From Adineta ricciae (lineage: Eukaryota > Rotifera > Eurotatoria > Adinetida > Adinetidae), in assembly GCA_905250025.1 (NCBI GenBank), contig CAJNOJ010000017.1, forward strand, positions 1 through 64,000: 64,000 nucleotides of DNA, read 5' to 3'. A model generated the notes under the pieces. The model was not told where the DNA came from and ran no database searches. It saw only the letters and a list, made by a program, of their open reading frames with translations. Numbering within the stretch: position 1 is the first letter of the stretch; every line of letters begins with the position of its first letter. Of this stretch, positions 104-16,200 are shown in pieces. Position numbers and translations under genes: made by a program.

Positions 104-792
104 TCTCCAATCAGTGTATCGTCATTACTTCTCTCGACCTTTTCTAACGATCTTTTTTTCTTCTGTTTAGGAAAAAAGTGCACGGCTGGAGATGACACAG
201 ACATTTCCTTTTTTCGTATCTTTCTCTACTCGTTAGCCGTAATACAGCTAGACTTTCCTGGGTACACCTCAGGAGTTCCCTTTTCTCCCATAGTGTCTTA
301 ATCTAATACAAAACAGATATTGCAGGGAGAATAAATAAACAGGAGAAAAAAGTAAGACAGAATACAGTATTTTCTCTTTCTCCGTCTCCCTTTTTCCTAT
401 TGGTAGATTTATTTCTCTTCCTCTTTCTCTCTCTCTCTCTCTCTCGTTTTCTCTCACTTTTTTTCTCTAAGAACAACGACAAAAAAGTTCTACTACACTG
501 CTGTGTATGTGTCTGTGCTTGATAGGTTGCCTACTGGAGTCATTATTGCAGTATCAATAGCTAGATCCTGGTGAGCCTATAGGCACCGTACGACGCTCAC
601 CTCTCCCTTCAAGTTCTCAATCCTGTGGAGCATCGCAAAAAAACCGACAAGTGCCAACCCCTATCGAGTTTGTTGACAACAAAAAAAACGACAAATCGCA
701 CAGTAAGTCGTTCACGGCATGGGAGTAATTATTAAATTTATCTCTTTTAAATTTTTTTGAAAAAACTAGTCATCAATCTATTAATCACATCC
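104..792. other. Non-coding 5' flank of ZIC copy 1
   Basis: No convincing gene is visible. There is a CT-rich microsatellite at about 419-460. From 471 onward the sequence is shared with the region upstream of copy 2 (from 2998), so the shared 5' flank/5' UTR is about 320 bp. Short open frames here are low-complexity artefacts of the CT repeat. Confidence 0.6.
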
Positions 793-2664
793 ATGTTCGA
801 TCCAACGAGTCCATCGGCAGACCGAAATGGTTGTGCAGGTGAAAGTACCAACAACACGACAACGTCGTCGTACCCAAGTCCATATGCACCAGTTACATAT
901 CGACCGTTGACGTCAACACCTTCGTCATCTTCAATTTTTAATGTGCCCGGTTCGACCTCATTGAATTCATTGGATGACCAACAACAACGTCGAACGGACT
1001 TCTCATCCTATGCGGGAACATCGCCACCGTTCTCAACAACCCAAGATCCATTGGCCGCTTCGAGCTTCATGTAAGTCTACTAGTCTTCGTATAACATTTT
1101 CCCACCTAATCGAAACGCACGTATTTCAATAGGACATATCCTATGTTCGATCCGGAACAGTATGCCAATACACAATACTATTCACGTTATGTTACAGCCG
1201 GTTCGCATATTGATCCGAGCACGCAAACAGCGTTTTTACCTTATTTTCATCCATCATATCGACAAGGACTTGGTACAACATGTAATGTTAACAATATTCC
1301 AAATGGCAAAAATGATACATATATATGTAAATGGGTTGATCCTGATACACACCGAATATGCAATCGTGCATTTGGTTATATGCATGAGATTGGTAAGTTA
1401 AATACATACATCCAATCATAGTATTTTTAATGAAAAGAAAGAAAGAAAGGAAAAGAAAAAAATGTCGGAAATGAGACTCCTGTGGTGCTACTGAAATAAT
1501 GACGAGGTTAAACAGATGACAAAAATGTGTGTGTGTGTGTGTATGTATGTTCTGTTCACTATATAAATGAAGCTTGTTAGTAAAGACATAATAATCATGG
1601 CATTTTGTCCCTTGATTTGCTTCTTTTAGTCACTCATCTTACTGTTGAACATGTGGGCGGACCTGAACAATCAACACACACATGTTTATGGGTCGATTGT
1701 CCAAGACATGGCCGTGCATTTAAAGCAAAATACAAATTGGTCAATCATATTCGTGTGCATACCGGTGAAAAACCATTTGCATGTCCATTCGCTCGTTGTG
1801 GAAAAGTGTTCGCTCGATCAGAAAACTTGAAAATTCACAAACGAACGCATACAGGGTTAGTTGAAACTGCCGTTTTTTTTCTCTCATATTCAAACAGCAC
1901 TATATTTTACTTTTCAGAGAACGACCATTTCGATGTCAATATTGTGAAAGAAGTTTTGCTAATAGTTCCGATCGAAAAAAACATCAACATGTTCATACAT
2001 CCGATAAACCATATAATTGCCGTGTCAGTGGATGTGATAAAACTTACACTCATCCGTCATGTAAGAATTTTCGCGATTTTGTGCGTCCTAGTTTGGAATA
2101 ATTGTTTCATTCGTTACTTTAGCTTTACGCAAGCATATGAAAATGCATGAATCTCAAGGTCAAGATTCGACGTCCTCGACAGCAACGAATTCATCGTCTG
2201 GTTCGATTAATGATTCGTGTTTGAAACGAAATAATCTTCATCGGCGTGGTGGCGAGAACGAACGGTCGCCGTCACCATCCTCACGAATGCATCCTCATTC
2301 TCAGCGACGCCGTCGCTCGTCTCGAGACAGTATAAATACCCATCTTCATCATCAACACCCGCCACCACAACATCATCAACAACAACAATTACTCCAACCA
2401 AATCATTCATCAATGAATACCACAACAACTACAGATAGTTGTTCCGATTCACCCCCATCGTTTGAAAACTTAGCACCAATGAAAGCCGCTTTAGCACGTA
2501 TGCATCATCCTCAACAAGCACCAGCTCAATCTGCGACATCAACAGATTGGCCATTGCATATGCACACAATGAGTGCATACCATCATCCACACGTTTATCA
2601 TCCTCATCATGCTGCTGCTTTACAACAACATTATTATCATCGACAAACTGGACTTAATTTTTGA
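793..2664 (+). CDS. ZIC: ZIC-family C2H2 zinc-finger transcription factor, copy 1
   Basis: This is a nuclear DNA-binding regulator of the ZIC/odd-paired family, which acts in neural and muscle patterning. Five exons join in frame: 793-1070, 1133-1392, 1630-1855, 1918-2060 and 2123-2664, giving about 482 residues. The first two fingers show the tandem CWCH2 form typical of ZIC (CKWVD... then CLWVDCPR...). Canonical C2H2 fingers follow, with the linkers HTGEKPF, HTGERPF and HTSDKPY, ending in the basic stretch RKHMKMHE. The N-terminus is rich in Ser, Thr and Pro; the C-terminus is rich in His and Gln. The ATG at 793 is chosen because the frame upstream of it is not conserved in copy 2. Introns are 52-240 bp. 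Copy 2 starts 2.5 kb downstream and is nearly identical, and the duplication is probably an assembly effect. Confidence 0.93.
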
Positions 2665-2996
2665 CTAATTTTTTCCTAAATATTCTATGTATTTGTGTGT
2701 GTGTGTGTGTGTCGCATTGCTTGAACTTTTTTCTCTTTTTCGTTCGTTTGCTTTCATTTCAAAACACGTATTTTTTGCTTGTTATTACACGAAAAGTTTT
2801 ACGATATTAGAAACAAAATAAGAAAGAAAAAGAAAGGAAACATTCGCATTGTTCTTGAGATAATTTCATTCTATAGACATGTACAGACAAGTGGGAACGA
2901 TTATCAATCGGTTCATTTGACACGAAGACATTCGTTCATCTAAATCAACACTTTAATAACATGATGAGCTTAAACATTGAATGTCTCCACCCTCAA
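2665..2996 (+). other. 3' flank of ZIC copy 1
   Basis: This is the probable 3' UTR. It contains a GT microsatellite (about 2694-2712) and AT-rich sequence. Bases 2812-2996 recur at 5557-5741 with no differences that I found, and at about 5335-5519 with at least three. It ends at the N at 2997. Confidence 0.6.
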
Positions 2997-2997
2997 N
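2997..2997. other. Single-N join
   Basis: One ambiguous base separates the 3' flank of ZIC copy 1 from sequence equal to position 471 onward. It reads as a contig join rather than a true base. Confidence 0.85.
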
Positions 2998-3320
2998 GAA
3001 CAACGACAAAAAAGTTCTACTACACTGCTGTGTATGTGTCTGTGCTTGATAGGTTGCCTACTGGAGTCATTATTGCAGTATCAATAGCTAGATCCTGGTG
3101 AGCCTATAGGCACCGTACGACGCTCACCTCTCCCTTCAAGTTCTCAATCCTGTGGAGCATCGCAAAAAAACCGACAAGTGCCAACCCCTATCGAGTTTGT
3201 TGACAACAAAAAAAAACGACAAATCGCACAGTAAGTCGTTCACGGCATGAGAGTAATTATTAAATTTATCTCTTTTAAATTTTTTTTTAAAAACTAGTCA
3301 TCAATCTATTAACCACATCC
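2998..3320. other. 5' flank of ZIC copy 2
   Basis: This is the same sequence as 471-792 with a few substitutions and one or two homopolymer length differences. It is probable 5' UTR and promoter-proximal sequence. No separate gene is present. Confidence 0.6.
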
Positions 3321-5179
3321 ATGTTCGATCCAACGAGTCCATCGGCAGAGCGGAATGGTGGTGCAGGTGAAAGTACCAACAATACGACAACGTCGTCTTA
3401 CCCAAGTCCGTATGCACCAGTTACATATCGACCATTGACATCAACACCTTCGTCATCTTCAATTTTTAATGTACCCGGTTCGACCTCATTGAATTCACTG
3501 GATGATCAACAACGTCGAACGGACTTCTCATCCTATGCGGGAACATCACCACCGTTCTCAACAGCCCAAGATCCATTAGCCGCTTCGAGCTTCATGTAAG
3601 TCTGCTAGTCTTCGTATATCACTTTTCGACTAATCGAAACGCATGTACTTCAATAGGACATATCCTATGTTCGATCCGGAACAGTATGCCAATACACAAT
3701 ACTATTCACGTTATGTTACAGCCGGTTCGCATATTGATCCGAGCACGCAAACAGCGTTTTTACCTTATTTTCATCCATCATATCGACAAGGACTTGGTAC
3801 AACATGTAATGTTAACAATATTCCAAATGGTAAAAATGATACATATATATGTAAATGGGTTGATCCTGATACACACCGAATATGCAATCGTGCATTTGGT
3901 TATATGCACGAGATTGGTAAGTTAAATACATACATCCAATCATAGTATTTTTAATGAAAAGAAAGAAAGAAAGGAGAAGAAAAAATGTCGGAAATGAGAC
4001 TCCTGTGGTGCTACTGAAATAATGACGAGGTTAAACAGATGACAAAAATGTGTGTGTGTATGTTCTGTTCACTATATAAATGAAGCTTGTTAGCAAAGAC
4101 ATAATAATCATGGCATTTTGTCCTTTGATTTGCTTCTTTTAGTTACTCATCTTACTGTTGAACATGTGGGCGGTCCTGAACAATCAACACACACATGTTT
4201 ATGGGTCGATTGTCCAAGACATGGCCGTGCATTTAAAGCAAAATACAAATTGGTCAATCATATTCGTGTGCATACCGGTGAAAAACCATTTGCATGTCCG
4301 TTCGCTCGTTGTGGAAAAGTGTTCGCTCGATCAGAAAACTTGAAAATTCACAAACGAACACATACAGGGTTAGTTGAAACTACTGTTTTCTTTTCTCTCG
4401 TATTCAAACAACACTATATTTTGCTTTTTCAGAGAACGACCATTTCGATGTCAATATTGTGAAAGAAGTTTTGCTAATAGTTCCGATCGAAAGAAACATC
4501 AACATGTTCATACATCCGATAAACCATATAATTGTCGAGTCAGTGGATGTGATAAAACTTACACTCATCCATCATGTAAGAATTTTCACGATTTTCTGCG
4601 TTCTATTTTGGAACAATCGTTTCATTCGTTGCTTTAGCTTTACGTAAGCATATGAAAATGCATGAATCTCAAGGTCAGGATTCCACTTCCTCGACAGCAA
4701 CGAATTCATCATCTGGTTCGATCAATGATTCGTGTTTGAAACGGAATAATCTTCATCGGCGTGGTGGCGAGAACGAACGGTCGCCCTCACCATCCTCACG
4801 AATGCATCCTCATTCCCAGCGACGTCGTCGCTCGTCTCGAGACAGTATAAATACCCATCTTCATCACCAACATCCACCACCACAACATCATCAACAACAA
4901 CAATTACTCCAACCAAATCATTCATCAATGAATACCACAACAACTACAGATAGTTGTTCCGATTCACCCCCATCGTTTGAAAACTTAGCACCAATGAAAG
5001 CCGCTTTAGCACGTATGCATCATCCTCAGCAAGCACCAGCTCAATCTGCGACATCAACAGATTGGCCATTGCATATGCACACAATGAGTGCATACCATCA
5101 TCCACACGTTTATCATCCCCATCATGCTGCTGCTTTACAACAACATTATTATCATCGACAAACTGGACTTAATTTTTGA
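3321..5179 (+). CDS. ZIC: ZIC-family zinc-finger transcription factor, copy 2
   Basis: Same gene structure as the copy at 793-2664. Exons are 3321-3595, 3657-3916, 4143-4368, 4433-4575 and 4638-5179. Exons 2-5 have the same lengths as in copy 1, and exon 1 is 3 nt shorter (one Gln fewer). Protein differences seen are confined to the N-terminal low-complexity region (Asp to Glu, Cys to Gly, Thr to Ala). The five fingers and the last 175 residues are identical. Most substitutions are silent or intronic. This low divergence, together with the N joins on both sides, makes an allelic copy of the same locus more likely than a paralogue, although a recent true tandem duplication is not excluded from sequence alone. 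Confidence 0.9.
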
Positions 5180-6780
5180 CTCATTTTTTCCTAGATATTC
5201 TATGTATTTGTGTGTGTGTGTGTGTGTGTGTGTGTCGCATTGCTTGAACTTTTTTTTCTTTTTCGTTCGTTTGCTTTCATTTCAAAACACGTATTTTTTG
5301 CTTGTTATTACACGAAAAGTTTTACGATATTAGAAACAAAATAAGAAAGAAAAAGAAAGGAAACGTTCGCATTGTTCTTAAGATAATTTCATTCCATAGA
5401 CATGTACAGACAAGTGGGAACGATTATCAATCGGTTCATTTGACACGAAGACATTCGTTCATCTAAATCAACACTTTAATAACATGATGAGCTTAAACAT
5501 TGAATGTCTCCACCCTCAATCATCTACATGCCATCAACGACAATGACAACAACATNAACAAAATAAGAAAGAAAAAGAAAGGAAACATTCGCATTGTTCT
5601 TGAGATAATTTCATTCTATAGACATGTACAGACAAGTGGGAACGATTATCAATCGGTTCATTTGACACGAAGACATTCGTTCATCTAAATCAACACTTTA
5701 ATAACATGATGAGCTTAAACATTGAATGTCTCCACCCTCAATCATCTACATGCCATCAACGACAATGACAACAACATATTGCTGTTCGTTATTCTTGTGT
5801 TTTTCCATTCCAATTCAATGAATTGAATACAACACAACACATCCATCGCACGTTAATAATTACTTTCTCGATTCGATTTTCTATTTTATTCGATGCGAAC
5901 GGATCAAACATACAATCGAATATTGAAATAAAACTTTCTTCTTATCGGTAGCGAAAGGCCTCCTAGCGTGCATTTCTTTTCTTCTTTGCTCTCTCTCTCT
6001 TCCTCTCTTCGCACCTATTGATTTTCGTATGTATACATCGAATCTATTGTTCGTCGAACTGATCGTCACAGGGGATCTAAGTCTATACAGTTGACCGTTC
6101 AATTACTGAACGTTGCCATCGAAGAAGACGAGAACATACGAATATCTTATGTCATCCTTGACTGTAAATTGTATAGATGTCTTTCGATTCTACGCAATCA
6201 ATTTTTCAATTGTCTACTTATGTATCATCTATGTTTCATTTTCGAAAACAACTGGAATGTCATCGTTTATCGATAGCTCGAAGGAAGATGATCATCATCA
6301 TCATCATTTGCCACTGCAGGATGCGCTAATTGTTCAATTTGTCTGTCTACGTATGCATATGTGTGTGTGAGAAAAGCTCTTCACGAACACTAGGTGGTGA
6401 CAAAACTCAAATTAGAACCTCATTTACGCGAGGAAAAAAAGAGAACTTGTCTTATTTTCAACAATCAATCAATCCAATGCTCGACAGATGCCTTCTTACT
6501 TGTCGCAAAAGAAGAAACAAACATACTTTTCACACCTACTTCTGCAATGATGAAAGACCCCATATGTATCACACGTGAAATAAGTTTTTTCTTTTATTCA
6601 AATGAAACGCGTATATATATACACACACACAGAGAAGAAATGAAGCAATAGTATTGAGATTCGTTCGAAATAAATACAGACAAACAACACAAATAGATGA
6701 TTAATAAAGATGACCATTCCACGGTTTGACTATGGACATCTGACCCAAATAATAAATGAGATTAATGACTATTACCAGAT
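5180..6780. other. 3' flank of ZIC and gene-free spacer
   Basis: The left part is ZIC 3' UTR with a GT microsatellite (about 5211-5234). Bases 5335-5555 recur at 5557-5777 across the N at 5556. From about 5778 to 6780 the sequence is AT-rich, with short CT, CAT and AC tracts, and I see no supportable exon. The open frames there have no recognisable domain or clean splice signals. Confidence 0.5.
5335..5777. repeat. 222-bp direct repeat across an N
   Basis: Bases 5335-5555 and 5557-5777 are direct copies with an offset of 222 bp and the single N at 5556 between them. At least three substitutions distinguish the two. The right copy agrees with ZIC copy 1 (2812-2996) at those sites and the left copy does not. 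Confidence 0.85.
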
Positions 6781-7655
6781 TCAATTCTTTCCTCGACGAC
6801 TAAATGCAATTATAACTAAGAGAGAAAAACAACGAACGCACATGATCGTTTCAAAGTTGTTTAATCGAATTGACTTACTAATGATGAAGAGAATAACTCC
6901 AATAACAATACCAGCGATACAAATATTTGTCTAGAAAAGGAAAAATCAGTCGAAAGAAAATAGATCGATCGATTATGAGCTACTCGTGTGTTTTTCCACC
7001 AATACTTTCGTCGTAATTGTTTTGTTGTTTGATTATACGTTGATGCTGATGTTTCTAAGTCATCCGCACGCGTCATCAGATTGTTCAATGCAACATCACG
7101 ATCTAGTAATCGATCAATATTCTTTTTCATTACACCAACCACTTCTTGTACTTGACCATGAAGTCTACAAAAATAGAAATTACTCAAACGATCAGTGAAC
7201 AACTCGATTTACTTTTTAACACCGTCACCTGTTGACGATCGTATAATATCACTAAATCAAACGTACGACATACNTTCTAAGTCATCCGCACGCGTCATCA
7301 GATTGTTCAATGCAACATCACGATCTAGTAATCGATCAATATTCTTTTTCATTACACCAACCACTTCTTGTACTTGACCATGAAGTCTACAAAAATAGAA
7401 ATTACTCAAACGATCAGTGAACAACTCGATTTACTTTTTAACACCGTCACCTGTTGACGATCGTATAATATCACTAAATCAAACGTACGACATACTATTT
7501 GACAAAGGTCAACTTTTCTTACGATTCAATTTGAATATCCAATGCTTCATCATCATCATCTCGAATAGATGACTAAATACGAGGGTTTCGTCATTTACAA
7601 GGAAACTCATAAAACTTACGTAATTCTGAGGACGTGTGTAACCAGCAGTAGCCAT
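6781..7655 (-). CDS. Synaptobrevin/VAMP v-SNARE (exons duplicated by an assembly join)
   Basis: This is a tail-anchored vesicle R-SNARE that drives membrane fusion. From the ATG at 7655 the exons are 7620-7655, 7523-7572, one copy of the 39-nt exon (7213-7251, repeated at 7435-7473), 6984-7164, 6879-6930 and 6781-6815. Joined in frame with one copy of each, they give 130 residues. The N-terminus is short and acidic. The SNARE motif spans about 43-95 with the zero-layer Arg at about 74 (TRADDLE). The juxtamembrane RRKYWWKN precedes a C-terminal hydrophobic segment (about 103-122) ending SRRGKN. Whether it is closest to VAMP1-3 or VAMP8 is not clear. An exact 222-bp duplication around the N at 7274 repeats the small exon and part of the SNARE exon; automatic models may be garbled here. 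It is the last gene of the minus-strand cluster. Confidence 0.9.
7052..7495. repeat. 222-bp direct repeat across an N
   Basis: Bases 7053-7273 and 7275-7495 are direct copies offset by 222 bp, with N at 7274 standing where base 7052 would be. I saw no differences between the copies. The repeat contains part of the VAMP SNARE exon, an intron and the 39-nt exon. Confidence 0.9.
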
Positions 7656-7676
7656 TCGTTGTTTAACAGATATTAT

Positions 7677-7695
7677 CTATGAGAGAAAGTTCATA
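7677..7695 (-). promoter_or_regulatory. Splice acceptor just before the VAMP start
   Basis: On the minus strand a pyrimidine-rich tract ends in CAG/TAG-type acceptor TCATAG, 21 nt before the VAMP ATG, with no obvious upstream exon of its own. It is a candidate trans-splice acceptor or the end of a 5' UTR intron. Confidence 0.35.
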
Positions 7696-7804
7696 ATAAT
7701 CTAGAAAACGAAACAGCATAATAAAAACTTCAAGGTTAAAGAAACAAAAGCGAAGGTGGATAACGCAACATCACGATGTCTAGTTTCTGATTGAACTTTG
7801 TTCT

Positions 7805-8801
7805 TTAGAAGCCTGGCATTCCAGAATCATCACCACCACCACCACCACCAGTATTCATTTTCTCACGCGATTCGGTCCATGCTTTGGCAATGGTACGTTT
7901 CATTTCATCATCACCTGTTTCATACATATTCTTCATCAATTGCATTAATGAATCTCCGGGATCTTTGGTATCATCCATTTTTGGCAATGATCTATTGAGA
8001 GAAAGAAACGACGAATGGAAACGTGATGATGTATTAGTCAACTGACTTTTCGGGTGCTTTTTTCTCGTCTTGAAAGATGCATTCCCAAGTTTTTGATTCT
8101 GCTTTGGCTAAAAGCAAAACGATCATGTCTTTTTTCACCTAAAATAAGCATAAAGATATCGAACAAGAAAGATCATTTTCGTGTACCTTGTAGGATGATT
8201 GATCAGGTTTGATAGCATTTAATAAACGACCTCGTTTGAAAACGTAATTGATGTTTTTCAAGCCATTGATTTCTAATTGAAAACCTCTGAAGAAAAAAAC
8301 AGAAGAAAGAGCATTAAATACGCCACTTTGATAGCAAGCCTCTCTTTACCGTTCTTCGAATGAGCAGCGAACTTGCTCAGCTGGTAAATCTCCAACTCCA
8401 TCCAGATTTTGAACATAAATCTTAACAGATTTATCCGATTGGTCCCAGGCTAAACGACAAAAAGTTATTCTTGGATCCAGGTGAATTGATTTCGTTTACC
8501 ATAAAGTGTGATTTCTTTTGTATATGATCGAGCTGTCGATGAGGATAATGTAGTTGTTGCTGGTTTCTTTTCTGTTGATGGTGCAGAAGCTTGTTCTTGT
8601 TTTTCTTTCAATGCAATCAATTCTGTTTCAAAACGACGTTGTTGAATTTCCAGACATTGTTTAACTCGCGAACGAGTAGCTTGACCCAACAGTTGTTTAA
8701 TTTCACTGATGTCCGAGTTAATCTTCAACAGCAATCACGTACAAAGGCAATGACACTGGCAAATCACTTACGTCTTGCATTTGTTGTTCAATATTTGCCA
8801 T
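7805..8801 (-). CDS. CACYBP: Calcyclin-binding protein / Siah-1-interacting protein
   Basis: CACYBP/SIP is an adaptor that links Siah-type E3 ligase complexes to substrates and binds S100 proteins. The start at 8801 gives an N-terminal helical hairpin (MANIEQQMQD, then a spliced exon beginning INSDISEIKQLL and RSRVKQCLE), as in the family's dimerisation domain. The middle exons encode the CS (p23-like) domain, with segments such as YTKEITLYG, QNLDGVGDLPAEQV and GRLLNAIKPD. The C-terminal SGS region carries MKRTIAKAWTESREKM followed by a Gly-rich tail. About six short exons with small introns give roughly 230 residues, the usual family length. It lies 91 bp downstream of the Nudix-like stop and 150 bp upstream of the VAMP start. 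Confidence 0.92.
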
Positions 8802-8823
8802 TCTCGTTGATAAATGTCTTTGT

Positions 8824-8840
8824 CTACAAAAATAGAATTC
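8824..8840 (-). promoter_or_regulatory. Splice acceptor just before the CACYBP start
   Basis: On the minus strand the sequence ctatttttgtag ends 22 nt before the CACYBP ATG. It is a good 3' splice site with no evident upstream cis exon, and lies in the 91-bp gap to the preceding gene. It is a candidate trans-splice acceptor. Confidence 0.4.
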
Positions 8841-8891
8841 GCATTTATTACATAATTTCGAAAACAAATCAATGTCGTGCTTTTTATAATA

Positions 8892-9422
8892 TCACAATAA
8901 CTTTTGTTGTATTCCTTGCTTAATGACAGAAATAACTCGCCGATGTAAAGGACACTGCTGTCCAGACTGATCGCGTCCCATTGACGTCCGATCAATCATC
9001 TTCCACGGTTTCTTCTCGTGAAATTGCTTCAACGGAAAGAATCTCATTGAAGTAGTCTCAAGATACGAATGATCATTCGATAATTCCGTCAAATCAAACT
9101 GTTCGAATCGACTGCACACATCCCTATCACACGCTACTTTGTATATATAACAACGAAAGATTTCGTCAGAAAACTGTACGTCAACAAATGGGCAAGATGC
9201 CAAATGGTCTAAATCACAAGAGAAAAGAGTACGTGTTTCTTCGCGCAATTCTTCCTGTGCAGTTTTCTCTAAACATTTCGGTTCATCCAAATCGTATTTG
9301 ATATAACCGCCACAGCAATTGTAATTTTTCGTGTAATCAAACACCAAGAGTACAGACGAACTGATTGTGTCGACAATTAGTACACCTGATCCGGAATATT
9401 TCTCTGAAACGGACGAGGCCAT
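8892..9422 (-). CDS. Nudix-hydrolase-like protein, degenerate Nudix box
   Basis: A single uninterrupted exon of 176 residues. The segment around residues 38-67 resembles a Nudix box: GGY, then a loop, then AQEELREETRTLF, with the glutamates expected for metal binding at about 58, 61 and 62. The box is not canonical: the usual Arg before the first catalytic Glu is Glu, and the Gly after EET is Arg. Nudix enzymes hydrolyse nucleoside diphosphates linked to another moiety, but the substrate cannot be read here and activity is uncertain. The ATG directly follows a CAG splice acceptor, so a leader exon or trans-spliced leader is likely. Gaps to neighbours are 163 bp upstream and 91 bp downstream. 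Confidence 0.65.
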   Translation of the reverse strand: MASSVSEKYSGSGVLIVDTISSSVLLVFDYTKNYNCCGGYIKYDLDEPKCLEKTAQEELREETRTLFSCDLDHLASCPFVDVQFSDEIFRCYIYKVACDRDVCSRFEQFDLTELSNDHSYLETTSMRFFPLKQFHEKKPWKMIDRTSMGRDQSGQQCPLHRRVISVIKQGIQQKLL

Positions 9423-9440
9423 CTGAAAGAAAGAAAGAAA
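9423..9440 (-). promoter_or_regulatory. Splice acceptor directly at the Nudix-like start
   Basis: On the minus strand a CT-rich tract ending ttctttcag abuts the ATG with no intervening base. This fits a trans-spliced leader or a 5' UTR intron. Confidence 0.4.
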
Positions 9441-9584
9441 GAAAAAACAACGAGATACAGAATTAGATTCTTTTGTGTAGAAGCAAAAGAAAAGAGATCT
9501 ATTGAATTATTACGCAAAAAAGTTCGTGACTAAGTATTAAAACGAAACAAAATCTATCCTAGTCCATTGCTGGTCTTCGCGACT

Positions 9585-10209
9585 TCAATATAAGTTCGAA
9601 TTGTGCGGAAACAACGTGTTTAATCGAAACGGATCACAGTAACAACGCACAACCAACGCTGTTGGATTAGTTTCAGTACTAAACGAAATCAATTCATTAC
9701 AAAATCTTTCTTTCGCATAAACATACTCGTGATGTTTTGCACTGATTATCTCTGCTGATTTATTTGTTATCTCGGTTGTTTGTTGAACATCACTTTTGGT
9801 CGAAGTTGAGCCTTCACAAACCATCATTTCGCTCGTCTCTTCGTATTCCATGGTCGTTGATGAGAGTCGATCTGTTTCCATTGATTTGAGTTTTTTCGCA
9901 TTGCAGTTTGTTGGTATCTAAAGAGTCGATACTCGATTAGATTTCGTTGTAACAAACCGAGAAAAAGTCACAACACTACGTAATCCTTCGATCTGCTGAT
10001 TTCTATTCGATGAATGAATACGAATGCAAATGAAGCGTCGTCACAGAAGAAAGAGAGTAAGATTCATTCGGGTAGAGATAGAAGATATCTCGAGCGATTT
10101 TTCGTACCTGGTCGTTGAGAGACAAAAATCGAGCCGAAGAAGGATATCCTTCATCATCTGAAAGAAATTTTCGTTTGTTGTTAAGGAAATTTTCAATAGT
10201 TGTTGTCAT
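9585..10209 (-). CDS. Small unrecognised protein
   Basis: I do not recognise this gene. Two exons (10108-10209 and about 9585-9920) join in phase 0 across an intron with a GTACGA donor and a TTTAG acceptor, giving about 144 residues. The protein starts MTTTIENFLNNKRKFLSDDEG and has a central Ser/Thr/Glu-rich region. The end is more hydrophobic, with several Cys (VVRCYCDPF). No signal peptide or membrane segment is evident. It sits 64 bp downstream of the DDX56 stop, and a splice acceptor lies 28 nt before the ATG, so it may be co-transcribed with DDX56. The alternative is that the first open frame (10003-10209) ends without splicing. Confidence 0.5.
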
Positions 10210-10237
10210 GATTGTGATCTGCTCGGAAATTTTCTAT

Positions 10238-10255
10238 CTGAAACACACAAAACAA
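10238..10255 (-). promoter_or_regulatory. Splice acceptor before the small unknown gene
   Basis: On the minus strand gtgtgtttcag ends 28 nt before the ATG at 10209, inside the 64-bp gap after the DDX56 stop. This leaves little room for a conventional promoter and cis-spliced leader exon. Confidence 0.4.
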
Positions 10256-10272
10256 AGAGAGAACAAGTTTAT

Positions 10273-12247
10273 TTATTTTTTTCGTGCAATTTCTTTTTTC
10301 AAAGCAGTGACAGCATTTAATGAATTCGTCAACGGATTATTCCGTTTCATACGTTTGACATTATTATTAATCATCTCTGATTTTCTCTTGGTACTCATCG
10401 ATGTTTGCTGCTGTTGTTGTTGTTCAGAGTTGGTCGATGATGTTTTTTTCAATGAACTTGGAATGAGATAATCAGGCACGTGTTTGAGATGTTCTTTGAC
10501 TTTGACGATGTGCAATGCTGAGTCATGTCGAAGTAATTGCAATTCTTTTTTATTGTCATTGAAATAGGTTTTTAACTTTTTCGAATTGAAGATTTCTGCT
10601 TTGATTTCTTTTAAGCGAGCTTCACGAATTGATATACGAGTTATTGCTCGTAATGCATCTAAAACTCGATAGCGAAAGCCATCAACTTGCTCCGATTTGA
10701 ACCGATACAAATGGAACATGTCTTCACCGTACTCATCTTCTAATTCCGTACGAACAAGTTCGAAATGCTCCATCTCTTTCTGAGACACTAACGACAGTGC
10801 CAAACCTAGAATTGAAAGTGACTATTACCATGATGAAATTTCGGTTGACTCGAACCTTTTTGATCGACACGAGCAGTTCGCCCTACACGATGAACATACG
10901 CATCGAAATCCGTCGGAAAATCGAAATTGACTATATTCGCTACTCGATAGAAATCGATACCACGCGAAACACCGTATTCTTTATCACCTTTTCGATCATC
11001 TGTCTTCTTCTTCTTCTCTGAAATACGAATAAAAATCTTTCAACAACAAATGCACAAATTCACGATTCATACTCTTCTTCGATGATTCTTCTTCTTGAGT
11101 TTCATCTTGTTCTTCACCGTCTCCTTCCTGCTCCGGTACAGCATTCGGTGCATCTGTTGCAATCATGATGTCATACAACCCATCATTCTAAAGCATAATG
11201 ATACAAAAAAAAGAAAGTAACTATTGATCTCAAATAGAATTGAACACTTACATATTGTTGAACAATATGCAAACGTGAGTCCATGGGTAGTTCACTATTT
11301 AACAAACACGTTTTTATATGAAATTGTTCCATTAATAACTTCAATCGATACGCTTGTTCCACAGAATTCACGAAGAGAATGGTTCGTCCAACTAATAACT
11401 GTAATTTGAATATTGTCACAACTAAAACGAATTTTTGGTCCTGTTCACAATAAATGTAGTACTGTAGTAATTGTTTATTATCTGGTAGAATGGTTGAATA
11501 ATCATCGTTTTGGTTGATTTTCACGGGATTATGAAGAAACAATTGTTTTAGTTGTGCAATATCATCGTTAAGTGTGGCTGATATAAGAAAACATTGATAG
11601 GATTTCGATTTTGATGGAAGATATTTCGATATTTTTTTCATATCATTCGCATAACCAAGTGAGTAGAGAATATCAGCTTCGTCTAGGATAAACAATTCCA
11701 ATGTATTCAAATTCAACGGTGACGTATGATCTTTCAAATGTTCGAGTAGTTTCGTTGGTGTTGAGATGATAATTTCTGGTAAAGCATTACTATTCGAAAC
11801 AAGAGATTGTTTTTGAATTTGTGTAGATAATGAATTCGACAAATCATAAAGATTGATCTCTCGACGACAATAACTCGTTAGTTTCATCAAGACAGATGCA
11901 ATCTGATGACATAGTTCCTTCGTTGGTGAAAGAATCAACACTCGAACATTACGATTTGTCGTTTGTTGCTTTGTTAGCAGATGTTGGATGGCGGCGAGTG
12001 CATAGACACCGGTTTTACCACTACCAGTACGAGCTTTGACAAGAAGATCTTTACCCGCTAATGCGTATGGAATTGTTTCAGCTTGAATTGGCGTCGGTGA
12101 TGGCCATTGTAGATCAGCGATTGATTTCAATAGACGATTATCAAGACCGAAGTCATAGAACGAACGTGTTACAATTTCTTCATCGTCATTTTCTTCTTCT
12201 TCTTCACCGTCTTTGATTAGCTCGGGTTCGGCAAAACGAACAGACAT
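10273..12247 (-). CDS. DDX56: DEAD-box RNA helicase DDX56/Dbp9-type
   Basis: An ATP-dependent RNA helicase of the DDX56 (yeast Dbp9) group, which acts in nucleolar large-subunit ribosome assembly. Exons 11252-12247, 11073-11187, 10856-11017 and 10273-10805 join in frame to about 601 residues, slightly longer than I recall for the human protein. Visible motifs in order are the Q motif ([10 protein letters not shown]), motif I (ARTGSGKT), PTKEL, the TPTK of motif Ib, the DEAD box (LDEADILYS), motif III (SAT), then [20 protein letters not shown] and HRVGRTAR. A Lys-rich acidic insert lies between IATDA and SRGIDF, and the C-terminus is Gln-rich then basic. The ATG immediately follows a CAG acceptor. 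It is divergent from RIC1 and first in the five-gene minus-strand cluster. Confidence 0.95.
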
Positions 12248-12262
12248 CTGAAATCTTGAAAT
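12248..12262 (-). promoter_or_regulatory. Splice acceptor directly at the DDX56 start
   Basis: On the minus strand aagatttcag abuts the DDX56 ATG. It implies a leader exon or trans-spliced leader upstream. Confidence 0.4.
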
Positions 12263-13281: not shown

Positions 13282-16200
13282 ATGTATTTTCCAATCGGTT
13301 CGTTTCGAAGTTTTTCATTACCCATAGAAGAACCCTACGAGATTATTTTTCTCCGAACTACGCGTGATCGTCTTAAACTTGTTCTACTCACACCTACTAT
13401 TATCAGCGTTTGGTTGACAAAGGTAACGAACAAAAACATGTTCAATACGAATTGATATTCTTTGATGAATTGTTCTTCTAGCCAACGACGTTAGTTGGTC
13501 TTGTTCGACGCTCAGAAAATTCCATTGCAGTTCACGGGCAAAACGTTTCTGCTGAATGGCGAAATGATACTCAAAAACTAGCTGTTGCAACAAACAAAGG
13601 TTATTTGATATATTACAAAGTTATCATCGATAGACCAAAGTCATCTTTCTTCGGATCAAATAACGATGAAGATCCTTGGTAATATTTAGACGTGAATTTT
13701 AGTCTCCTATTCTCGTTCATTCTGGTTTATTAGTGAGTTTCTCATTCGGATCAATACGGAAGCACAATTCACATTTCCTATGGTACGAATCAAGCTGATT
13801 CAAGATAGTGCTTTACATATTGGTTCTCACATTCAAGGGTATACCGTTGATGAAGTTCGAAATGAGTTCCAACAAATATCTTTTACGAATTTGTTTAGAA
13901 TTACCAATCTTGGACCTGATCTGTTGGTTGCTGATAATACAGGATACTTATATCGTATATCGTGGGATGGATCTATTCATCAACATTTAACGATATCGTT
14001 AAGTGCGATATCATACACGGTTTCATTGAATTCTGATCGAGGTCTGTTTGTATTTGTTATCGAAGGGGAAATTCATGTGAATTTTTCGTCTCTAGTCTAT
14101 AAAACGAACCAAGTTGATCGTTATGCAAAATATATTGAATTCTCTCCGTTATTGAATGGTATCGGAATTGTATTTAGCGATGGAACATCGGGTTTGATCA
14201 TTTGTGAAACAGCGAAATTCGAACCGCTGGTAGGAGAAAAAGAATCGATTGATATCGCATGCGAATGCCGATCTGCTTTTTATTTATCAGCAATGTCAAT
14301 GTATCGTCGTCCAATTAGGAGCCGACGAGAAGATCTGGAGAACTCATTGTTGTGTGGCATTAAATGCTATCTATCAATTGTTAGCATTTGGGTCGACAAG
14401 GTTTGTGTCTAACGTTGCTGTCGATCATTTTGATTGTTGTACTTTGCAGTGGACAAGGCGCTGTCTATTACATTGATGAATTGACAGCATCGTTACAATT
14501 AGCATTTAAGATACAGTTATCTGTAGAGAACTTTCCCGGTACGAAAGAATGACTGTTGAATGAAGATGATGTCATTGTGACCTCTATTTTCGTAGATTTA
14601 ATCGAAACTGTCGGTGCATTGTGTTCGATGAAATGGAGTCCTGATTATCGTGTTCTTTGTACTCTGTGGGAGAATGGTGCATTTGCTATATGGACTGTAT
14701 TTGGTATTCTTCTCCATTGTTCATATTCATCAGAACAATCACTGTAAGATTTATTTTCTCTCGATCAAATCTCGTCAACTGATTTCATGTCCGTAGAAAT
14801 CCGATGCATTCATATGGTTTGTGTCGAGTCATTGTAAGTCTAATTCATCCGAACAGAATGAATGATCGATGAACAATGCAATTCTTTAGGAATGGGGTCC
14901 TGATGGGTATACTCTATGGGTAGCATCCGAAAAGTTCACTTCTAGCTCACCCACTGACTCGCATATGAAGGCAATAAGAGAGAATAGCAATCAATTGATA
15001 CTGTTAAGTTTTTTAAAATCAGCTGTGATCAATAATCCTCATTCGGTTTGTTTTCGAATTGGTTATCATCTTCACTTGTTCGTAATCAACGATATTTTAG
15101 GGAAGCATTGAACATTTATTATTGCAATCAGAAGACAAAGTTTATCTGTACTTAAGTGGAAATCAACAATCCGGAAATAGTAACGGCTTGTCAATATCGG
15201 TTGGTTCGGATGTTGGTTGGCAAGTGATTCAATTACCACAGTTATATATTCATAACAATTGGCCGATTAAAGTAAATATCTAGTTTTTGCTTAGCGAAAA
15301 TAATTTCGATGTTTAGTTCGCTTGTATTGATAATACGGGCCAATATTTGGCTGTCGCTGGTCAACATGGCTTTGTGCATTTTTCATTATTCACTCGAAAA
15401 TGGAAGTTATTCGGCAATGCTGGCCAAGTGAGTTCATCCAGAACTTATCTATGAGATACACATTCGTTTTTGAAGGAACGTGATATACGTATTGTTGGTG
15501 GTTTATTATGGTGGAAAGAATTTATCGTCTGTGGGTGTACCTCAACGAGTGAAAACCGTGACGAAGTGAGATATAACGCTTATTCCTGGATATTTTACTA
15601 AATGCAATGTCTCTATATCTATATATGTATGTATTTAGCACGTTCCGAGATATGAAGTAAGAGACAGAGATACAGATCAAAACAAATGACTAATAAAGGA
15701 AAAAGAAGCAGAGATTCAGCTCATTATACTAGCATGTATTTGCAGATCTTCTGTTGAGTTTTGAACTTGTTTTTTGGTTTATCTAACTAACAATTTTGCA
15801 TGGTTATTTTCTTCTATCATTTGGGATATTACGGTTGACTATTACAAACAGACAACAAAAGCTGAGCAGCTTTTCTTAACACAATAATTCCTAATCAATT
15901 AAGAACTGATTTGCATTAACATATATTATCAACTACACTTTAGATACGTCTCTACTCACGATTGACAAATTTGGATAATCAATTTTCGTACGTCACTCGT
16001 CTACAGTCACCAATCATATGTTTAAATATCTACGATGACACATTGATCGTCTTCTCGTAAGAACAACTCATCAGTAGTTCTGTCTAGCGGAGTCTAAATA
16101 TCCTTTGTGTTTAGGTATGATCTACATATTATGATATATGGATTGGAGCAAAAGGAAGGTAAACCAGGTAGGTGAAGAGTTAAATCAATATCATTCTTCA

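Follow-up and report, generated by a model that had tools for sequence, protein, structure and literature searches.

A candidate five-gene operon resolved by spliced-leader trans-splicing in the bdelloid rotifer Adineta ricciae

Five genes on the minus strand of Adineta ricciae contig CAJNOJ010000017.1 (C17; assembly GCA_905250025.1) probably form one operon of a known animal kind, whose messages would be resolved by spliced-leader (SL) trans-splicing. The DNA analysed (the window) is the start of this contig, positions 1 to 64,000, in a genome of 130.5 Mb and 1033 contigs. Genes for the RNA helicase DDX56, a small protein, a weakly Nudix-like open reading frame (ORF), CACYBP and VAMP follow one another head to tail. 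The operon reading was put forward in a preliminary description of the sequence, and it is supported by SL RNA genes in the genome, by gaps that hold acceptors and no donors above the score cut-off, by a conserved acceptor in front of VAMP and by similar tight junctions elsewhere.

Gene spacing, acceptors and missing donors

All five same-direction reading frames announced in the preliminary description were found, with their ATGs at 12247, 10209, 9422, 8801 and 7655:

10273..12247, minus strand: gene 1, DEAD-box RNA helicase read as DDX56, 601 amino acids (gene model, Pfam)
9585..10209, minus strand: gene 2, small gene of 2 or 3 exons, about 128-144 amino acids (reading frame)
8892..9422, minus strand: gene 3, single-exon ORF, 176 amino acids, degenerate Nudix-like box by eye (reading frame)
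7805..8801, minus strand: gene 4, CACYBP / Siah-interacting protein, 243 amino acids, several introns (Pfam, PDB)
6781..7655, minus strand: gene 5, VAMP / synaptobrevin (Pfam Synaptobrevin, 2.6e-25)

From the last base of each stop codon to the next ATG, gaps 1-4 measure 63, 162, 90 and 149 nucleotides (nt); the tight gaps described earlier are real, each having been counted one too many (64, 163, 91 and 150 bp). Several distinct genes on one strand with gaps this short are the arrangement by which an SL trans-splicing operon is recognized.

Splice sites were scored with matrices built on a set of 271 predicted introns, which have a median length of 56 nt and a minimum of 46 nt, and the cluster acceptors tested all lie outside this training set. 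The gene finder required donors above 2.5, so all 271 training donors pass that score and the scan speaks for donors above it. A further 90 kb of the genome served solely for gene-finder training. Among the five genes the finder recovered only DDX56 correctly, merging or cutting the others, and it split long genes; its tandem-pair calls were discarded and only the splice-site matrices were used. The acceptors are as follows:

12248..12249, minus strand: acceptor AG of gene 1, score 5.0 (5.002), directly at the ATG (0) (matrix)
10238..10239, minus strand: acceptor AG of gene 2, score 7.3, at -28, 35 nt past the DDX56 stop (matrix)
9423..9424, minus strand: acceptor AG of gene 3, score 9.0, directly at the ATG (0) (matrix)
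8824..8825, minus strand: acceptor AG of gene 4, score 6.7, at -22 (matrix)
7701..7702, minus strand: probable main acceptor of gene 5, score 7.0, at -45, in a block conserved with a second VAMP copy (matrix, alignment)
7677..7678, minus strand: second acceptor of gene 5, score 5.2, at -21, the site of the preliminary description (matrix)

The earlier claim of a pyrimidine-rich tract ending in AG 0-28 nt before each ATG is borne out by a scored acceptor at all five genes, the positions then given (12248, 10238, 9423, 8824 and 7677) being the last base of each AG; what it overlooked is the better, conserved VAMP acceptor at -45. Each of the four downstream ATGs has an acceptor of 6.7-9.0 at most 45 nt upstream, and the four gaps, 464 nt together, contain no donor above 2.5; among 4000 randomly drawn 464-nt stretches of the window, 2.1% were likewise free of such donors. 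An acceptor without a partner donor is the appearance of a trans-spliced outron, and an acceptor before every downstream gene with no cis donor above 2.5 in the gap is the pattern of an operon, donors inside the upstream genes being possible.

The absence of an obvious cis leader exon, also claimed earlier, stands for the four gaps but not for DDX56, upstream of which lie two possible cis donors (GTAAGA at -142 and GTGAGA at -134), so that gene 1 may be trans-spliced or may have a cis-spliced intron in its 5' untranslated region (UTR). That all these genes carry ordinary 5' UTR introns, with the leader exon of each inside the upstream gene, is very unlikely. Besides the DDX56 donors, this explanation can draw on the acceptor at each ATG, on donors above 2.5 that three of the four upstream genes contain near their ends, and on a CACYBP paralogue that may have such an intron (see below). 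The donors inside the upstream genes may, however, simply serve those genes' own introns, and with no donor above 2.5 in the gaps the leader exons must lie in upstream coding sequence. The distance from the stop to the end of the acceptor AG is 35 nt in gap 1 and 68 nt in gap 3; as no predicted intron is shorter than 46 nt, gap 1 cannot hold both a leader exon and an intron, and gap 3 hardly can.

Chance acceptors in the pyrimidine-rich, AT-rich spacers of a compact genome, in front of genes with unspliced short 5' UTRs, are the least probable explanation. Taken singly the sites leave it some room, since dinucleotide shuffles reached the observed score with p = 0.021, 0.0185, 0.012 and 0.0425 for gaps 1-4 and with p = 0.07 for the 120 nt before DDX56. 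As background, an acceptor of at least 5 lies within 30 nt of 6.1% and within 50 nt of 8.8% of 2805 window ATGs (both strands), and within 50 nt of 0.8% of 375 in-frame internal ATGs of predicted coding sequence. The cluster acceptors are singly modest and jointly unlikely by chance, and five of five is far outside these percentages, in a cluster that was chosen for its looks; the conserved VAMP acceptor block and the LSM-family genes described below also speak against chance.

Polyadenylation signals of the form AATAAA occur in gaps 1 and 3, and another lies past the cluster:

10268..10277, minus strand: two overlapping AATAAA, over and just past the DDX56 stop codon (sequence)
8844..8849, minus strand: AATAAA in gap 3, some 20 nt ahead of the CACYBP acceptor (sequence)
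6593..6598, minus strand: AATAAA past the last gene, VAMP (sequence)

Pfam gives family support to genes 1, 4 and 5 and not to genes 2 and 3. The DDX56 exons (12247-11252, 11187-11073, 11017-10856 and 10805-10273) encode DEAD (3.5e-37) and Helicase_C domains, and the first exon has a single genomic place at 100%, the next best place being 31% identical. A PDB search with gene 1 returned DEAD-box helicases only, not specifically DDX56; we take it to be DDX56 from the likeness of its C-terminal half to the human protein. The small gene gave no Pfam match over cut-off (one weak, 0.017) and NCBIfam matches that are weak and far under cut-off; it occurs at one place only in the genome, and its last exon may be interrupted by another intron, in frame and about 50 nt long. 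The name 'Nudix-like', which gene 3 received in the preliminary description, holds as a degenerate box seen by eye and as a motif reading without profile or structure support: Pfam and NCBIfam gave no match, and PDB matches came only at E 0.65 and worse, none of them named Nudix. A predicted model of its fold (mean predicted local distance difference test score 31.8) was uninformative and was discarded. The gene is single copy in the genome. CACYBP matches Siah-Interact_N (6.3e-15) and CS (1.6e-12) in Pfam and calcyclin-binding protein chains in PDB (3.2e-19). A DNA search and protein searches with DDX56 exon 1, the Nudix-like ORF and the small gene turned up no second copy of the complete cluster in the genome. 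Within VAMP, an exon-containing block of 221 bases stands twice with 100% identity (7053-7273 and 7275-7495) around a single N at 7274, which is most likely an assembly join and not a real duplication.

Spliced-leader RNA genes of the genome

The genome contains a family of bdelloid SL RNA genes, in agreement with the SL trans-splicing in bdelloids that the preliminary description had invoked, and the trans-splicing machinery is therefore present. The published rotifer leader, a 23-mer given in PMC3795323, was searched with its reversed pattern as a control, giving 44 genomic places with one or two mismatches and none for the control. The first base of the published leader, a G, reads T at all 44 places, and an encoded leader of 22 nt is therefore possible; the initial G may come from the cap or may reflect a species difference. 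Over 22 nt, 41 of the 44 places are exact (the Rotifera leader entry of PMC3795323 matches them at 22 of 23 nt), and the other three have one more change. By the account given in PMC1925144, over half of the transcripts of two bdelloid species bear the same leader, whereas a monogonont rotifer reportedly showed none.

The 20 excised loci hold 21 distinct leader copies, every one followed by a GTAAA donor and then by a conserved RNA body (21/21); leader exon, donor and short structured body, which together mark a bdelloid SL RNA, were all found. Folding was carried out on 20 distinct copies preselected for the GTAAA donor, taken from leader-search and RNA-body-search loci. The donor lies inside an invariant TACC/GGTA stem pairing, and in the long 3' stem several pairs change on both sides (compensatory changes), with a few broken cells; one divergent copy has its second stem broken.

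An RNA-body search of the genome gave 40 matches, some outside the leader-search list. At C99:113500-115000 (locus L055) four SL RNA copies form two head-to-head pairs with a 24-nt leader variant that has two extra bases, possibly a second leader. Altered copies include one at C8:256.9 kb with one leader base missing, one at C8:344.7 kb whose leader is lost and one at C112:289.3 kb with altered leader and body; the RNA-body match at C99:23.15 kb has no leader, and those at C43:404760 and C6:241748 are partial. SL RNA genes often stand as divergent pairs (contigs C6, C8, C43, C77, C79, C99 and C146). In the excised loci the head-to-head pairs are 132 nt apart, one pair being 348 nt apart, and leader coordinates suggest wider-spaced pairs on C79 and C146; it is possible that paired genes share promoters. 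A full-length U2 snRNA gene lies near an SL RNA pair on C8 (locus L021, 1037-1232).

A second VAMP copy and tight junctions elsewhere

A second VAMP gene lies on contig C1 (C1:341-349 kb), its DNA being 76% identical in the 204 nt that match. Both copies have a ZIC-like zinc finger gene as their tail-to-tail neighbour; the two zinc finger genes are identical at 63 of 70 positions in protein, and both match Pfam zf_ZIC, the window gene just over cut-off. Between the VAMP copies the acceptor block (TTTTcTAG/ATTAT) is identical at 19 of 21 positions, whereas identity is 30/88 in the stretch before the block, 15/40 in the one behind it, 27/38 across coding exon 1 and 21/47 across the intron. This acceptor is better preserved than coding exon 1, which argues that it is used, and the conserved block places the VAMP site at -45 (7702-7701), not at -21.

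Upstream of the C1 VAMP, in the same orientation, lies a THOC7-like gene, whose Pfam match (1.7e-6, 28.8 bits) just clears the cut-off of 28.7; it has an acceptor of its own (5.0, at -6) and donors upstream. THOC7 was found only on C1, and DDX56, the small gene and the Nudix-like ORF only on C17; in its second copy the VAMP end has another upstream partner. The simplest history suggested by these gene orders would be a larger ancestral cluster split by gene loss; rearrangement would also fit. We tentatively raise the wider possibility that bdelloids have many SL-resolved operons, that this one predates the bdelloid genome doubling, that a larger ancestral operon was divided by gene loss (leaving DDX56, the small gene, the Nudix-like ORF and CACYBP on C17, THOC7 on C1, and VAMP on both, last and facing the same ZIC-like gene), and that its trans-splice acceptors were selectively kept. 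The ZIC-like gene itself occurs twice in the window (465-2996 and 2992-5519, 96% identical) with single Ns at the joins; 5335-5555 and 5557-5777 flank an N at 5556, and another N stands at 2997. It looks as if the assembler placed two alleles in tandem.

For a view of junctions elsewhere in the genome, the LSM domain family was chosen without regard to neighbours, and 14 of its 22 matches were examined (the ten best and four more); eight of the 14 genes are four pairs of copies and are not independent. An acceptor of at least 5 lies within 50 nt of the ATG in 12 of the 14, compared with the 8.8% background, the genes without one being one SNRPB copy and SNRPD2. Most have donors within 200 nt, so cis 5' UTR introns are possible. 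At least four of the 14 (SNRPF, LSM2, LSM6 and a NAA38-like gene) stand close behind a same-strand gene, the upstream side of the other ten having been judged from open frames or bare translations. The first three of these junctions, and an acyltransferase pair next to one of them, have family support on both sides and acceptors of 5.6-7.9:

RPS27A to SNRPF, gap 166 nt, same strand: acceptor, no usable donor
IGBP1 to LSM2, gap 98 nt, same strand: acceptor, no usable donor
NOP56 to LSM6, also on contig C17, gap 168 nt, same strand: sole donor lies after the acceptor
AGPAT-like (acyltransferase) to RPS27A, gap 140 nt, same strand: acceptor, no usable donor

In all, seven tandem pairs outside the cluster were looked at, these four included. 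The names SNRPF, SNRPE, IGBP1, NOP56 and NAA38 are our own readings, where Pfam gives LSM, TAP42 and Nop. The PCC-domain gene that stands behind LSM2 on C15 (locus L069) has a Pfam match of 1.4e-25 to a domain named for plants and prokaryotes and was possibly acquired from outside animals.

The proposed operon and known systems

We propose that transcription would begin at a single promoter upstream of DDX56, in the interval from 12250 to the divergent gene at 13780, and would yield one long precursor running through all five genes. Each upstream message would be cleaved and polyadenylated within the gap, and the SL ribonucleoprotein would donate the 22-nt leader to the acceptor before each downstream ATG, giving every message its own cap. 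Four elements of this scheme are inferred from DNA: co-transcription of the genes, the presence of the leader on their messages, cleavage within the gaps and the promoter's position. Co-transcription is the least supported of them, because separate promoters driving compact trans-spliced genes would leave much the same picture in gaps 2 and 4, though hardly in gaps 1 and 3.

Such compact independent genes, with their own promoters in the upstream gene or in the gap and monocistronic messages that receive the leader on a short outron, would make no operon; we consider this unlikely, and some observations weigh on its side, others against the operon reading. Among the LSM-family genes near-ATG acceptors are far commoner (12 of 14) than established tandem neighbours (four); an acceptor by itself is therefore no mark of an operon. 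The VAMP copy and CACYBP paralogues exist outside the cluster. Against the operon itself stand further observations. The CACYBP paralogue on C608/C590 stands alone, outside any tandem, and its 5' UTR may contain an ordinary cis-spliced intron of some 44 nt (with a donor of 4.4 and an acceptor that scores only about 1). The gap between THOC7 and VAMP on C1 is 296 nt and contains a donor of 2.6, the 135-nt gap between a gene without Pfam match and a NAA38-like gene contains a weak donor of 2.9, and the 184-nt gap from LSM2 to the PCC-domain gene has donors and no acceptor of at least 4 within 60 nt. Within the cluster, DDX56 has the possible cis donors given above and the weakest acceptor, which barely reaches 5; gaps 2 and 4 (two of four) contain neither AATAAA nor ATTAAA; and the statistic for donor-less gaps (2%) is modest. 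Donors under 2.5 may also be present in the gaps, because the finder itself demanded 2.5 and all training donors pass it by construction. Independent promoters would, on the other hand, find little or no room outside coding sequence in gaps of 63 and 90 nt, and a run of five genes together with further tight pairs is what is expected of operons. The contigs C590 and C608 (loci L043 and L044) are very similar by eye, and the CACYBP paralogue there stands head to head with a membrane-protein gene.

SL-resolved operons are known in nematodes, tunicates, flatworms and chaetognaths. For bdelloids, the 2005 work of Pouchkina-Stantcheva and Tunnacliffe may contain a hint of polycistronic messages. 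The present cluster resembles Caenorhabditis elegans operons, including the minority SL1-type, in its short same-strand gaps and in the acceptor before the downstream genes; the C. elegans gaps have a median of 99 bp in a table of PMC7986045. A difference lies in nematode SL2, a leader reserved for downstream genes; the possible second leader here is the 24-nt variant of four C99 copies. In the SL1-type and Ciona layout, as outlined in PMC12582326, the poly(A) site abuts the acceptor; gaps 1 and 3, with AATAAA about 20-30 nt before the acceptor, come nearer to this layout. For chaetognaths, PMC12460157 gives an operon criterion of less than 250 bp and mentions that no operon-specific leader was found there. 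Tunicate, flatworm and chaetognath operons are likewise made of close same-strand genes, but they use other leaders and were identified by leader-bearing RNA reads, whereas this cluster is read from DNA alone. The leader is the same as in bdelloid SL trans-splicing (Pouchkina-Stantcheva and Tunnacliffe 2005, as relayed by citing papers).

In the statements available from the sources, a 2021 methods paper describes rotifer operons and polycistronic mRNAs as unreported (PMC7986045), a 2008 table gives 'not determined' for rotifer operons (PMC2481426), and a sentence on trans-splicing and operonic transcription names rotifers without data (PMC12460157). No report of a rotifer operon was found among the literature matches listed, judged by title and the start of the abstract. 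If RNA confirms it, a rotifer operon would seem to be new for the phylum.

SL trans-splicing is scattered across animals, and the cluster bears on how far operons accompany it. The five-gene cluster and the tight housekeeping pairs offer exact junctions for a direct RNA test, and bdelloid gene models may wrongly fuse or truncate such tandem genes. If the operons predate the genome doubling, bdelloids would show how operons are broken up by gene loss.

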